Assembly (NCBI RefSeq): GCF_024807035.1 | Contig: NZ_JANUCQ010000001.1 | Location: 371,990-435,989, forward strand | Source of the DNA: Methanococcus voltae PS | GTDB lineage: Archaea; AGJL01; Methanococci; Methanococcales; Methanococcaceae | Reading direction: 5' to 3' | DNA length: 64,000 bases | Shown: piece after piece, positions 5,052 to 61,242 of the stretch | How positions within the stretch are numbered: position 1 is the stretch's first letter | How the letters are laid out: each line of letters starts with the position of its first letter | The notes under the pieces: model-generated | The model's input: only the letters and a program-made list of their open reading frames with translations | What the model was told of the DNA's origin: nothing | Database searches by the model: none | Position numbers and translations under genes: made by a program

Positions 5052-5371
5052 ATTTACACCATAATTATAAAATATATAATAATATACAATATGATATTAT
5101 TTTAGATTATTTTAGATTATTTTAGATTATTTTAGATTATTTTTAATTTATTAATGTACTGTTTTTAAACTAGTATCTTTTCCTACTATATATTATTTTT
5201 TTATTACTATTCCCTATATAAATCGTATATAATAAATTTACATAAAAATTTACATAAAATTAAGATATAATCTTTAAATTAAAAATGAAAAAAGAGTAGA
5301 AAGATATTAATTTAATATTTATTTTACCATTGGGTTATTACTTTATTTTTAATTATTTTTTTATTTTTAAT
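5052..5371. other. 320-bp A/T-rich spacer upstream of cbiH
   Basis: This lies between cbiH and the end of the chagasin-repeat gene, both on the minus strand. It holds the four-copy 10-bp tandem repeat annotated separately and T/A-rich tracts. No gene was seen. Confidence 0.5.
5101..5140. repeat. Four tandem copies of a 10-bp unit (TTTAGATTAT)
   Basis: Four exact copies run from 5101 to 5140, about 50 bases upstream of the cbiH start codon, so the array lies in the promoter or leader region of that gene. The 10-bp period is close to one helical turn. It may be a regulatory site or only a microsatellite. Confidence 0.85.
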
Positions 5372-21022: not shown

Positions 21023-21356
21023 AATTAAATTTTAAGTTTAATTTTTAATTTTAAAACAATAAAATATTCATAAAAGTTAATATAGTATAATAAAGTAACA
21101 TAGATTATTTCATAACATATTTGAAAATAGAATAATAGTAATTTAAAACGTAAATACATGACAGAATATAATACAAAAATATTTATAATGTATCTAATTA
21201 TGATTATTATGATATAAATAAGATAAAATGATAATTTATACTATACGTACTAAATTTATAATCTATACAAGACTTATACAATTATTATACAAGTATTATA
21301 CAAGTATTATACAATTATTATACAATTATAAAATAATTTAATATAAAGGTGAATTA
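21023..21356. other. 334-bp promoter region of lonB with an 11-bp array
   Basis: A/T-rich DNA between the hycI-like gene and lonB. The last third is filled by the 11-bp tandem array annotated separately. No gene was seen. Confidence 0.5.
21274..21328. repeat. Five tandem 11-bp units (TTATACAAGTA/TTATACAATTA) upstream of lonB
   Basis: Five consecutive 11-mers begin at 21274, 21285, 21296, 21307 and 21318, in the order variants B, A, A, B, B (A = TTATACAAGTA, B = TTATACAATTA). A degenerate sixth copy (CTATACAAGAC) precedes them at 21263. The array ends 28 bases before the lonB start codon, in the promoter or leader. An 11-bp period puts all copies on about the same face of the DNA helix. Confidence 0.85.
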
Positions 21357-55478: not shown

Positions 55479-56801
55479 TTAGTTAGCTGAACTATTGAGG
55501 TACTCGTCTATTTTTTCACTTAAAGTTTTAAATGTCCATTTCATTAAATTTTCATCTTTTTCAAGTAGTGTAAATCTTAATCCCTCATGTTTTGAACAGA
55601 AAGACGTCAATGGTACCATACAAATACCTGAAGCACCCAATAACTGGTAGACAAATCTCTTGTCTTTTTCAACTAAGGAATGTTGTCCACACTGGTCTAA
55701 AACTCCATTTATATACGTGTCTAATTCATTATCCATTTTTAAATGCTGTTTGTCATTTAAAACACCATCGTCAAAGGTTAAAGCTCCATAAAATGCTCCA
55801 TTTGTAAGATTTACTGAAACACCTTCGACTTTATTAATTGTCTTATATGCGTAATTTGAAGCTTTTTCGTAGTATTTTTTACGTTCACCCAAAGATTTTT
55901 CAAACCTTTTATCGCCCATTACCTTAGGTATAATCGTTTGAGGTAATGTAGTTGAACATACTTCTATCATTTTGAATTTACCGATATTTTCAACGTATTT
56001 TTTGAATACTGGGTCTTTATCTTTATTATAAAATTCTGTCCAGCCACAACGGGAGCCAGGCCATGGTAAATCTTTAGAAATACCTTTCATTGAAATTCCG
56101 CAAACATCGTCTATTACTTCTGAAAGGCTAACATGCTTTTTACCATTGTAAACTAAATTTTGGTAAATTTCGTCACATAATATAAATACGTCGTATTCGT
56201 TAGCTATATCTACAATATCACTTAATACTTTCTTAGAATATACTGCACCTGTGGGATTGCCGGGATTTATTAATAATATACCACTAACCGAAGGATTATA
56301 TTTTACCTTATTTTCCAAATCATCCAAATCGGGATACCATAAATTATCTTTATCCAAACTGTACATCACAGGTGAACTATTTGAGTATAAACCTTCTGCA
56401 GATGAATGTGTGGAGTATGCTGGAGTAGGGCCAATTACCCTACATTCTTTTCTCATTAATCCATAAATATTAGTTATAGCATCCCCTAAGCCATTGAAAA
56501 ATATCATATCGTCGGATGTAATCTGAGCTCCATTTTTACTATTGTTTAAATCTGCTAAAAATTCACGTGTTTCTAATAAACCCTGAGTAGGGCAGTAACC
56601 ATATGTTTTATTTTCTAAAGTACTTTCTGAAACTATTTCTTTAATCCATTCGGGCATTTGTTCCCCTTTTGCGATAGGGTCCCCAATATTTTCCCAGATT
56701 ATTTTTTTGCCTAATTTTTGGGCTCTTTCCGCTACTGCAACAATTCCCCTAATTTCGTAAGATAGTTCTTCAGTTCCCTTGTTTACAATATTGTTTCTCA
56801 T
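55479..56801 (-). CDS. PLP-dependent aminotransferase, class I/II
   Basis: The 440 residues include NPGNPTGAVYS near 179-189, CDEIYQNLVY with the PLP-binding Asp and Tyr (D210, Y213), and SKDLPWPGSRCGW with the Schiff-base Lys243. This is fold type I, close to alanine- and aspartate-type aminotransferases; the exact amino acid cannot be told. GGTGAAATT precedes the ATG. Monocistronic. Confidence 0.87.
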   Translation of the reverse strand: MRNNIVNKGTEELSYEIRGIVAVAERAQKLGKKIIWENIGDPIAKGEQMPEWIKEIVSESTLENKTYGYCPTQGLLETREFLADLNNSKNGAQITSDDMIFFNGLGDAITNIYGLMRKECRVIGPTPAYSTHSSAEGLYSNSSPVMYSLDKDNLWYPDLDDLENKVKYNPSVSGILLINPGNPTGAVYSKKVLSDIVDIANEYDVFILCDEIYQNLVYNGKKHVSLSEVIDDVCGISMKGISKDLPWPGSRCGWTEFYNKDKDPVFKKYVENIGKFKMIEVCSTTLPQTIIPKVMGDKRFEKSLGERKKYYEKASNYAYKTINKVEGVSVNLTNGAFYGALTFDDGVLNDKQHLKMDNELDTYINGVLDQCGQHSLVEKDKRFVYQLLGASGICMVPLTSFCSKHEGLRFTLLEKDENLMKWTFKTLSEKIDEYLNSSAN

Positions 56802-57027: not shown

Positions 57028-57285
57028 TTGGAGATAATTAAACCACGGAATTTATTAATATTGTTATTCATACCTAGTTATTTATGTCTACTACCAATAT
57101 ATTTAAAAGTATTCAAATCAAAAGTTATCAATCATATAATAGAGTTCTATTACATAATAATAACTTTTCAAAAATATATTAATTGTATTTTTAATATATA
57201 TAGTTTTGCATATTCTTTAACAAAAATAATAATTATCCTAAAAATATTAATTGCTAATCTTTATAATAGAGCTCTATTATACTAA
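57028..57285 (+). CDS. Possible small hydrophobic membrane protein
   Basis: The ORF starts at TTG 57028, with GGTGAT four bases upstream, and would encode about 85 residues rich in Ile, Leu, Tyr and Phe, with three or so hydrophobic stretches (NLLILLFIPSYLCLLPIYL, IIEFYYIIITF, KIIIILKILIANLY). The composition is also what A/T-rich non-coding DNA gives when read in frame. The region overlaps two palindromes. I list it at low confidence. Confidence 0.25.
   Translation: MEIIKPRNLLILLFIPSYLCLLPIYLKVFKSKVINHIIEFYYIIITFQKYINCIFNIYSFAYSLTKIIIILKILIANLYNRALLY
57136..57153. repeat. Near-palindrome ATAATAGAG-TTCTATTAC
   Basis: It shares 16 of 18 positions with the perfect palindrome at 57263 and has the same 9-mer half-site on one side. 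Confidence 0.8.
57263..57280. repeat. Perfect 18-bp palindrome ATAATAGAG-CTCTATTAT
   Basis: The two halves are exact reverse complements of each other, and the half-site ATAATAGAG also occurs in a tandem array at 57541. Confidence 0.85.
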
Positions 57286-57540
57286 ATCTAACGAATTTTT
57301 ATAATTATTTTTTAAATTAAAAGATTTTAACTGAGTTATTTTAATATTGGAGATTATTCAAGTTTCAAATATTTTAAAATACGTTTAGATATTATATCAC
57401 TATGTCATAATAATTCATAAATAACATACTCAAATAACAATTTATTAAATCTCGGGAAACAAATGATAAAAGATTTAATACTAAAATACTATAAAATAAA
57501 TAATATGATTAAAATAGTTTATTTAACAATGTTTATACAA

Positions 57541-57574
57541 ATAATAGAGATAATAGAGATAATAGAGATAATAC
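57541..57574. repeat. Three tandem ATAATAGAG copies plus a partial fourth upstream of smc
   Basis: Exact 9-mers at 57541-57549, 57550-57558 and 57559-57567, followed by ATAATAC. The array ends 68 bases before the smc start codon. The same 9-mer is the half-site of the palindromes at 57136 and 57263. Confidence 0.85.
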
Positions 57575-57642: not shown

Positions 57643-60600
57643 ATGATTTCAATATCCGAAATTCATTTAAAAAATTTCAAATCATTCAAAAATACGAAGT
57701 TAAAAATCCCTGACGGTTTTACTGCAATACTGGGTCCAAATGGCTCGGGAAAGTCAAATACTATCGACGGTATATGTTTTGTTCTTGGAAAAACCTCCGC
57801 CAAATCCTTGAGAGCAGGAAAATTTAACCAACTTATAACCTACCATAATGGAAAAAGGGCAGATTATGCAGAGGTAACTTTATTTTTTGACAATATAAAT
57901 CGTGAAATACCCATAGATTCTGATAAAGTAGGTATTTGCAGAAAAGTAAAGTTAAACGGCGATAATAATTATTACGTTGTTTGGTATGAAGTTGAAAAGC
58001 AAAATACTAAAATAAATACCGAAAGTAGCCAAAAAAAGACTTCAAAAGCTTCAAAAGTGGAAAAAAGACGTAGGATGAAGAAAAATGAAGTTTTAGACCT
58101 TTTAAGTAAGATATCTTTGATTGCAGATGGTCCAAACATCATTTTACAGGGAGATTTGCTTAGGATAATTGATACTTCGCCAAATGAAAGAAGAAAAATC
58201 CTAGATGAAGTCAGCGGAGTTGCAGAATTCGATGAAAAATCGGAAAAAGCAAAAAAAGAGTTATCTCAAGCAAGGGAATATATTGAAAAAATAGATATTA
58301 GGATAAACGAAGTTCGCGCTAATCTAGAGAAATTAAAGAAAGAAAAAGAAGACGCTGAAAAATATACTGTATATAACAAAAAATTAAAAGTTACAAAGTA
58401 TATTTTAACATCTAAAAAAGTAGAATTCTTAAAAATGGTTCTTGACGAAACAAAAGATGAAATAGAAGCTTTAAAAGAGACCAAAAATTGTTATATTCAA
58501 GATATAAGTAATATAGATAGCGAAATAATCGGATTAAAAGTAAAAATCAACGAGTTAGTCAATGAATTAAATGAGAAAGGTAGCGAAGAAGTAATGGAAC
58601 TTCATAAGTCTATCAAAGAATTGGAAGTAAATCTTAATAATGATAAAAATGCACTGGAAAATGCAATAGATGATTTAAAACACACGTTAAAAATGGAAGA
58701 ATCCAAAAATAATGATTTAAACGAAACAAAAGAGAAAATAAATAACATAAGGATTGACACCTTAAAAAAAGAAGCTGAAGCAAAAGTTTTGATTAAAGAA
58801 ATTGAAAAATTAAACGAAGAAAGGCAAAATTTAGAGAAAAAGGTAGAGCAAAGTGAATCTCAAGTTAAAGCTTTAAAAAATCAAGAAAGTAAGCTTTCAG
58901 AACGTATAAACGATACCCAAAAAGAATTATATGGCTTAAAAAACGAATTAAATCAATTAGAAAATACATTAAATAATAGAACTTTCGATTATCAAAAAAA
59001 CAATGAAACAATTGAAAATTTAACAAACCAGATAGCCGAATTTAGTGATTTAGAAGATACTAAAAAACTATACAAGGAATTAGAAGATATAGCAGTTGAA
59101 TTGGAATTTTCAAAGAAAAAATTGCAAGAAAAAATTACTGAACGAAATGATAGTCAGTCAAAATTAGATAATCTTCACTCTGAATATGTTAAAGAAAATG
59201 CGAGAATTAAAACATTAAAAGATATGGAAAACTTTAGTTTAGATAGGGCAGTCAAGGGCGTGCTTGATGCAAAGTTACCTGGTGTGGTAGATATAGCCGG
59301 TAATTTGGCTAAAACTAAAGGTGAATACAAAACAGCCATAGAAGTAGCAGGCGGTGCCAGGTTAAACCACATAGTGGTTAAGAAAATGGATGACGGTTCA
59401 CGAGCTATCAACTATTTAAAACAGAAGAGATTAGGTAGGGCTACATTCTTACCAATGGATAGAATAAAAGGTATGGATGCAAAAGACATTTCAGACACTG
59501 GTATTATTGGAAAAGCTATTGATTTGGTCGAATTTGATATAAAATACACAAATGTATTTAAATTTATCTTTGGAAATACTCATATAGTTGATAATCTTGA
59601 AAATGCCAAAAAATTATCCTTAAAATACAAGGCAAGATTTGTTACTTTAGAGGGTGAAGTTATAGAGCCATCTGGTGCAATGGTTGGGGGTAATATACGC
59701 AGAAACTCAGCTATTAAAGTAGATATCGATATGAAAAAATTAACTAATCTTTCAGAGGATATAAAAGAATTGGAACAAATTTTATCAAATGTTAAAGATG
59801 AAATAGAGCGTTTAAACAATAAAATTAATACATGCAGTACAAGAAAATTAGAGTTGGATAATCGCTTAAAAATTGCTCGAGACCAGGAATTTAAGAAAGA
59901 AGAGATTACAAAATCAAATAATTTAAAGATAAAAGAATTAAATATGTTAAATTCTAAAATAGATGACGAAATTTCAGAATTAACTGACGAAAAGGAAATA
60001 TTATCCCAAAAAGTTCAAAATCTAGATAATAAACTTTCTGAAGTAATGGGGCAACGTGAAAGAATTGTAAACGAGATAAAATCTTATGAAAATTCTGAAC
60101 TGTCAAAAAGAATTAAAGAAATTGACCATAAAATTAGGGAAAATGAAAGTAGCAAGAATACCTTGGAAAATGAGATTAAAAAAGGAGCCATTTTAGTAAA
60201 AGAAGTTTTAATTCCAAAGATTTCAGAGTTAAATTCCAACATTAAATCTCTTGCAGATAAGAAAAATATGTTTAAAAATAGTGTAGAAATTTATAAATCA
60301 AACATAGAATCAAATTCAAGCATATTATCTGATAAAAGAGGAAAATATGAAGAATTAACAAAGGGTTTAAAGGATTTAACCGATAAAAAAGAATGTTACG
60401 AACTAGAAATTGAGAATCTCCAAAATAATAAAGAAGAATTGAGAGAAAAAGCCACTGATATTGATAATCAGGTAAATGTTATAAATGTTGACCGGGCAAA
60501 ATACGAGACAAGGCTAGAGGAAGAGGAAAGAAAGCTTTATTTATGCGATACTCTAGAAAATATCGAAGATATATCTGACGAAATGATAGAAGAAACTTAT

Positions 60601-61242
60601 TCGTTAGAAATTGATGATTTAGAGAGAAATCAAGCACTTTTGGAAAGTAGTATAAAAAAACTCGAACCTGTAAATATGCGAGCTATTGAAGATTATGATT
60701 TTATTAACGAACGTTACGAAGAGTTATTTGGGAAAAGAAAAGAATATGAACAAGAAGAAGGTAAATATTTACAATTAATTTCAGAAGTTCAAAAAAGAAA
60801 GAAAGAAACGTTTATGAAAACTTACGATAGAGTTGCTGAAAACTATGAGCAAATATATGGTGAGATAGGAGGTAATGGTAAACTATCCCTCGAAAATGAG
60901 GAAGACCCATTTTCAGGAGGTCTTTTAATAGATGCTTCACCCATGAATAAGCAGTTACAGAATTTGGATGTTATGAGCGGTGGGGAAAAATCTTTAACCG
61001 CTTTAGCGTTCTTATTTGCCATTCAAAGATTAAATCCATCTCCATTCTACGTTTTAGATGAGGTAGATGCTGCGTTAGACACTAAAAATGCAAGTTTAAT
61101 TGGGGATATGATAAGTAACGCGTCTAAAGAATCGCAATTTATTGTTATATCCCATAGGGAGCAAATGATAAGTAAATCAAACGTTATGTATGGAGTATGT
61201 ATGGAAAATGGGCTTAGTAAAATAGTTTCGGTTAAATTATAG
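57643..61242 (+). CDS. smc: Chromosome segregation ATPase SMC
   Basis: This long-armed ATPase organises and segregates chromosomes, probably with ScpA/ScpB-like partners encoded elsewhere. The 1199 residues have an N-terminal head with Walker A GPNGSGKS at 31-38, two long coiled-coil arms (about 170-500 and 670-1010), a hinge at about 510-650 (PGVVDIAGNLAKTKGEYKTA, RATFLPMDRIKG), and a C-terminal head with signature LDVMSGGEKSLTALAFLF and Walker B SPFYVLDEVDAALD. Residues near 125-150 are a charged insert. The size is full length. GTGTCC precedes the ATG. Confidence 0.97.
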   Translation: MISISEIHLKNFKSFKNTKLKIPDGFTAILGPNGSGKSNTIDGICFVLGKTSAKSLRAGKFNQLITYHNGKRADYAEVTLFFDNINREIPIDSDKVGICRKVKLNGDNNYYVVWYEVEKQNTKINTESSQKKTSKASKVEKRRRMKKNEVLDLLSKISLIADGPNIILQGDLLRIIDTSPNERRKILDEVSGVAEFDEKSEKAKKELSQAREYIEKIDIRINEVRANLEKLKKEKEDAEKYTVYNKKLKVTKYILTSKKVEFLKMVLDETKDEIEALKETKNCYIQDISNIDSEIIGLKVKINELVNELNEKGSEEVMELHKSIKELEVNLNNDKNALENAIDDLKHTLKMEESKNNDLNETKEKINNIRIDTLKKEAEAKVLIKEIEKLNEERQNLEKKVEQSESQVKALKNQESKLSERINDTQKELYGLKNELNQLENTLNNRTFDYQKNNETIENLTNQIAEFSDLEDTKKLYKELEDIAVELEFSKKKLQEKITERNDSQSKLDNLHSEYVKENARIKTLKDMENFSLDRAVKGVLDAKLPGVVDIAGNLAKTKGEYKTAIEVAGGARLNHIVVKKMDDGSRAINYLKQKRLGRATFLPMDRIKGMDAKDISDTGIIGKAIDLVEFDIKYTNVFKFIFGNTHIVDNLENAKKLSLKYKARFVTLEGEVIEPSGAMVGGNIRRNSAIKVDIDMKKLTNLSEDIKELEQILSNVKDEIERLNNKINTCSTRKLELDNRLKIARDQEFKKEEITKSNNLKIKELNMLNSKIDDEISELTDEKEILSQKVQNLDNKLSEVMGQRERIVNEIKSYENSELSKRIKEIDHKIRENESSKNTLENEIKKGAILVKEVLIPKISELNSNIKSLADKKNMFKNSVEIYKSNIESNSSILSDKRGKYEELTKGLKDLTDKKECYELEIENLQNNKEELREKATDIDNQVNVINVDRAKYETRLEEEERKLYLCDTLENIEDISDEMIEETYSLEIDDLERNQALLESSIKKLEPVNMRAIEDYDFINERYEELFGKRKEYEQEEGKYLQLISEVQKRKKETFMKTYDRVAENYEQIYGEIGGNGKLSLENEEDPFSGGLLIDASPMNKQLQNLDVMSGGEKSLTALAFLFAIQRLNPSPFYVLDEVDAALDTKNASLIGDMISNASKESQFIVISHREQMISKSNVMYGVCMENGLSKIVSVKL

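Follow-up and report, generated by a model that had tools for sequence, protein, structure and literature searches.

The smc-aminotransferase spacer and its repeats

In the window, the whole 64,000-nucleotide stretch of the Methanococcus voltae PS genome analysed here, smc (positions 57643..61242, forward strand) and a PLP-dependent class-I aminotransferase gene (55479..56801, reverse strand) are transcribed divergently. They are separated by a spacer of 841 bp, the far end of which is the start of the aminotransferase gene. An earlier sequence-only reading gave this length correctly and described in the spacer a nonamer, ATAATAGAG, arranged both as a tandem array and as palindromes. Pattern matching and TRF confirmed that the nonamer, its three-copy array and both palindromes lie where that reading had placed them. 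The nonamer is repeated three times head to tail (starts 57541, 57550 and 57559) and forms a perfect 18-bp palindrome (ATAATAGAGCTCTATTAT) at 57263/57272, while the site at 57136 (ATAATAGAGTTCTATTAC) has two mismatches relative to the perfect palindrome. No Rfam RNA element was found in the spacer. Seven nonamer matches occur in the window against 1.48 expected from dinucleotide shuffles, with 0/100 shuffles reaching seven. Across the genome there are 29 copies versus 51 for the reversed pattern, which served as the genome-wide background, and the enrichment that a genome-wide count was meant to reveal is thus absent, ruling out the nonamer as a genome-wide signal. Six of the 29 copies fall inside one 432-bp stretch upstream of smc, and the 1.78-Mb genome has the palindrome ATAATAGAGNTCTATTA at just two positions, each of them in the smc-aminotransferase spacer.

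The array, delimited by TRF as 3.7 copies of ATAATAGAG with 100 % match (57541..57573), lies in front of smc and is directly preceded by a TATA-like TTTATACA (57532-57539). It was expected to persist in close relatives, yet at the same place the closest genome (G002) has a single full unit plus part of another, and the second closest (G006) has none. The array is therefore best read as a recent, lineage-specific expansion beside the smc promoter, by slippage of a 9-bp unit similar to the half-site. The earlier proposal that the nonamer is a recognition half-site holds for the palindromes, which are conserved and behave like sites for a dimeric DNA-binding protein, but not for the tandem array, which lies outside the conserved element. 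Among the arrangements of the nonamer, the palindromes are the only ancestral functional element. Since the number of array units differs between close relatives, the length of the smc promoter (window positions 57532-57573) may vary by slippage. Other tandem repeats in the window include six copies of an 11-bp unit (TATACAAGTAT; 21264-21329), which can also be read as two copies of 33 bp, and a perfect repeat of ATTATTTTAG in 4.8 copies (5096-5143). A possible long leader or small RNA was also noted at L218:3001-4234 (G000 C1:303954 onward).

Anatomy, conservation and phasing of the palindrome pair

The conserved parts of the two palindromes are near-identical 14-bp palindromic sites, with a consensus of about AATAGRRYYCTATT. 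Box A (AATAGAGTTCTATT; 57138..57151), the aminotransferase-proximal site, is located at -350 from the ATG of this gene in the source genome. The distal box B (AATAGAGCTCTATT; 57265..57278) is a perfect palindrome and lies 127 bp, or 12.1 helical turns, from box A. Between them, ~50 bp upstream of box A, is the TATA box of the aminotransferase promoter (TATATATA; 57195..57202, reverse strand), in a block that is conserved among the three closest genomes. Using a PWM trained without the clade under test and scanned over the 700 bp preceding the aminotransferase gene, the pair constitutes the top two sites in 30/33 Methanococcales genomes, with the third-best site usually far below. With the addition of G017, in which the pair was read separately, the pair, and with it box A, is found in 31/34 assessable Methanococcales; G032, whose contig begins in the aminotransferase gene, stands outside this count. 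The pair is conserved across two families and five genera, at the same aminotransferase gene. In each of the eight genomes where shuffled sequences were compared, 0/1000 shuffles yielded such a pair, and genomes of the Methanocaldococcaceae contain hardly any strong match to the motif other than the pair. No boxes occur upstream of the aminotransferase gene in G025, G031 and G034. On inspection, the gene in these genomes appears to follow closely behind another ORF, and so would be without a promoter of its own.

A TATA-like octamer (TTTATATA or a close variant) lies between the boxes in 30/30 genomes with the pair, with box B upstream and box A downstream of it in every case. The distance from box B to the TATA box ranges from 26 to 78 bp, and in most genomes box A lies near the start codon, often just before it. 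In the source genome and the two genomes closest to it, 330-590 bp separate the pair from the start codon, which implies that the leader is long or that there is a second promoter. At one locus (L172, in G010) both aminotransferase boxes have changed to an identical AATACAGCCCTATA, as if tracking an altered regulator specificity.

The spacings between boxes A and B cluster at 74/75, 85-87, 95-98, 104-106, 116-119 and 127 bp, steps that correspond to whole helical turns from 7 to 12. With related genomes collapsed by a hand-chosen grouping to ~11 independent spacings, the Rayleigh R was 0.82 at 10.5 bp (11 collapsed spacings), with Monte Carlo p-values of 0.0002 at this fixed period and 0.0004 when periods of 10.2-10.8 were allowed; 10.5 bp was the best period anywhere from 5 to 25 bp. 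The B-to-TATA and TATA-to-A distances both step by roughly ten bases. In evolution, whole turns have been inserted or deleted to either side of the TATA box while the boxes stayed on one face of the DNA. Such a phase constraint is the signature expected if the box-bound proteins touch one another, either through a loop or by wrapping of the DNA around one multimer.

Assignment of the pair to the aminotransferase gene

Among relatives, the palindromes were again found in the smc-aminotransferase spacer, where the pair occurs in 17 Methanococcaceae genomes, the spacer being only ~180-200 bp long in some. This proximity would favour the co-regulation of smc and the aminotransferase gene from a shared intergenic region, or even control mainly of smc. 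However, in four Methanococcaceae in which smc lies away from the aminotransferase gene (G007, G009, G011 and G019), there are no boxes at smc, and the pair is present at the aminotransferase gene elsewhere in the genome. In nine genomes of the Methanocaldococcaceae, a family in which the two genes are not adjacent, the pair sits immediately at the aminotransferase gene, and smc, lacking this neighbour, has no boxes in those sampled. The distances point the same way, with a box 14 bp from the aminotransferase start and ~700 bp from smc in G012, ~70 bp and ~1390 bp, respectively, in G017, and the nearest box ~365 bp from the smc start in the source genome. Because the boxes follow the aminotransferase gene rather than smc through these rearrangements, the pair is considered to belong to the former; judged by gene order, the two palindromes are the predicted operator of the divergent aminotransferase gene and not of smc. 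The genomes with rearranged gene order rule out a reading of the pair as the smc operator and, since it accompanies the aminotransferase gene, the suggested role as the site of an SMC regulator falls away, with any shared or mainly smc-directed control being very improbable. Clustering of the motif upstream of smc in relatives, which the sequence-only reading proposed as a check, is seen where the aminotransferase gene adjoins and is lacking where smc stands apart. In G011 (L174) and at loci L228-L231 of the Methanocaldococcaceae, a small ORF rich in cysteine and resembling a zinc ribbon apparently starts divergently upstream of the aminotransferase gene, with smc absent from that position.

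The presence of palindromes near smc in an A/T-rich spacer also lent itself to a chromosome-organisation, SMC-loading or replication-origin element. This can be considered highly improbable for a pair that accompanies the aminotransferase gene through rearrangements, is strong at essentially a single locus in each genome and brackets a promoter TATA box. Conserved motifs near smc thus need not concern chromosome organisation. Chance repetition in A/T-rich DNA would accord with the lack of genome-wide enrichment of the nonamer, the abundance of short A/T-rich tandem repeats in the window and the poor conservation of the array, and for the array this explanation is accepted. For the palindromes it is refuted by their retention at the same gene over two families and five genera and by the shuffles, and as an account of everything seen in the spacer it is scarcely credible.

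A putative two-site operator and its regulator

The positions and phasing of the boxes make it quite likely that they form a two-site operator of the aminotransferase gene, in which one multimeric regulator encloses the core promoter in a loop or wrap of DNA and probably represses it. Each box would bind one dimer of the same regulator, and the dimers, being on the same DNA face, would touch one another or be parts of one octamer. The core promoter, looped or wrapped by the bound regulator, would be shut in repression, which an amino-acid signal, probably alanine, may relieve or reinforce. Repression is regarded as the probable mode from box position only: box A follows the TATA box and sits near, or a little beyond, the point where transcription is expected to begin, a placing that favours repression over activation. 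The alternative, in which the boxes are upstream activating or dual-function sites like those of Ptr2 and BarR and one octamer wraps the promoter to activate the aminotransferase gene, is unlikely but has precedent. Activation by Lrp-type regulators in archaea is frequently exerted from sites immediately before the BRE/TATA (PMC2995911), BarR activates an aminotransferase gene (PMC10201364), and every genome with the pair has box B on the upstream side of the TATA box. Against this, the location of box A, downstream of the TATA box in 30/30 genomes and near the start codon in most, is typical of a repressor, and the distance from box B to the TATA box, 26-78 bp, varies too much for activation by contact.

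One or two Lrp/AsnC proteins are encoded in each genome sampled, with one orthologue being universal. This universal protein (G000 C2:146026 region) is a candidate for the regulator, and by family habit only, because it is also present in the three genomes without boxes (G025, G031 and G034) and its own gene has no conserved box in its promoter. Autoregulation of this Lrp gene through a box was therefore rejected as not conserved.

The aminotransferase and a possible alanine regulon

The aminotransferase protein best matches NCBIfam PRK06855, an unspecified PLP-dependent aminotransferase, followed by the alanine aminotransferase PRK08363. Among solved structures it is closest to two alanine aminotransferases, the transaminase 1xi9 from Pyrococcus furiosus and Escherichia coli AlaA (4cvq). 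An alanine transaminase in Methanococcus maripaludis has also been inferred from similarity to the P. furiosus enzyme (review, PMC4902934). The controlled enzyme is thus probably a glutamate-pyruvate/alanine aminotransferase, as far as its similarities indicate.

Weaker copies of the boxes also occur at two other genes. Three genomes, the source genome and the two nearest to it, have a box upstream of the Na+/alanine symporter gene agcS (PF01235); a further, less strong box ~216 bp on is conserved in all three, and these boxes lie ~1 kb from the gene. In four genomes that have the alanine dehydrogenase gene ald (TIGR00518), a box is found at -189 or -187, exact in one genome, with one mismatch in two and weak in the fourth, so that three or four genomes count, and these boxes vary at core positions. 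With ald found in only 4/22 genomes, it was rejected as a general partner of the boxes. A control indicated that roughly two matches with one mismatch or fewer are expected per genome by chance. Among the other matches with zero or one mismatch, several fall at the same place inside one conserved SecY-like membrane protein gene across genomes and represent a coding coincidence, while the remaining isolated matches near unrelated genes were taken as chance. All three targets, the aminotransferase gene, agcS and ald, concern alanine, which is suggestive of an alanine regulon, and alanine-using Methanococcus appear to have added the same boxes before agcS or ald. More tentatively, and with somewhat less than even confidence, we propose an undescribed alanine-responsive regulon of the Methanococcales, in which a multimeric regulator would enclose the promoter in a DNA loop 7 to 12 helical turns long, free in length but not in phase.

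Archaeal promoters use TATA boxes together with TBP and TFB, and while DNA looping between distant operators is textbook knowledge for bacteria, to our knowledge it has rarely been shown in archaea. If the looping proposal is true, the operator would provide a natural evolutionary series in archaea in which the loop may vary in length but must keep its helical phase. One promoter is available here in about thirty natural versions that differ in spacing, several of them in or near genetically tractable Methanococcus, which makes the idea directly testable; for M. maripaludis, dRNA-seq data have been reported (PMC10450193). The operator also offers a handle with which to fish out the regulator of methanogen alanine metabolism.

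Comparison with known systems

Literature searches, with subscription journals mostly outside their scope, found no paper describing this aminotransferase operator. The NrpR operators of M. maripaludis (GGAAN6TTCC; PMC2723118) are likewise palindromic, control nitrogen-metabolism genes and occur in the same genus, and an NrpR site has been reported at the Na+/alanine symporter gene (PMC2723118). The consensus GGAAN6TTCC was however found in 0/33 aminotransferase upstream regions, and identity with an NrpR operator was ruled out by this absence and the sequence mismatch. Archaeal Lrp-type regulators bind semipalindromic sites on one face of the DNA, which is wrapped, including at an aminotransferase promoter (PMC2995911, PMC10201364). 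The closest parallel of this kind, the BarR operator of the beta-alanine aminotransferase gene in the Sulfolobales (PMC10201364, PMC4977709), shares with the Methanococcales pair the ~14-15 bp semipalindromic sites, several per control region and on one DNA face, and the control of an aminotransferase gene, with the BarR DNA wrapped on an octamer. It differs in having four to five sites, predicted to be about two turns apart, where the Methanococcales operator has two sites 7-12 turns apart around a TATA box. Furthermore, the BarR sites adjoin the divergent barR gene, while the operator described here has a different sequence and no regulator gene next door. Ptr2, an Lrp family protein of Methanocaldococcus jannaschii in the same archaeal order, also uses palindromic paired sites on one DNA face, but these are two or three turns apart rather than 7-12, and the genes it is known to act on encode ferredoxin, rubredoxin and rubrerythrin (PMC2995911). 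The pair thus shares with Lrp/AsnC operators the palindromic sites of 13-15 bp on one face (14 bp, phased at 10.5 bp), but not the centre spacing of two or three turns (PMC2995911). On account of its spacing of 7-12 turns, the pair was not filed as an Lrp/AsnC operator.

The two-operator repression loops of bacteria, gal OE/OI and lac, place similar operators on either side of a core promoter at whole-turn spacing. The Methanococcales pair does the same, with the TATA box between phased boxes in 30/30 genomes. Unlike gal and lac, it flanks an archaeal TATA promoter, and its spacing drifts by whole turns between species. With its flanking operators and integral phasing, the pair appears to work like a two-operator looping repression system, in which the loop and the repression are putative.
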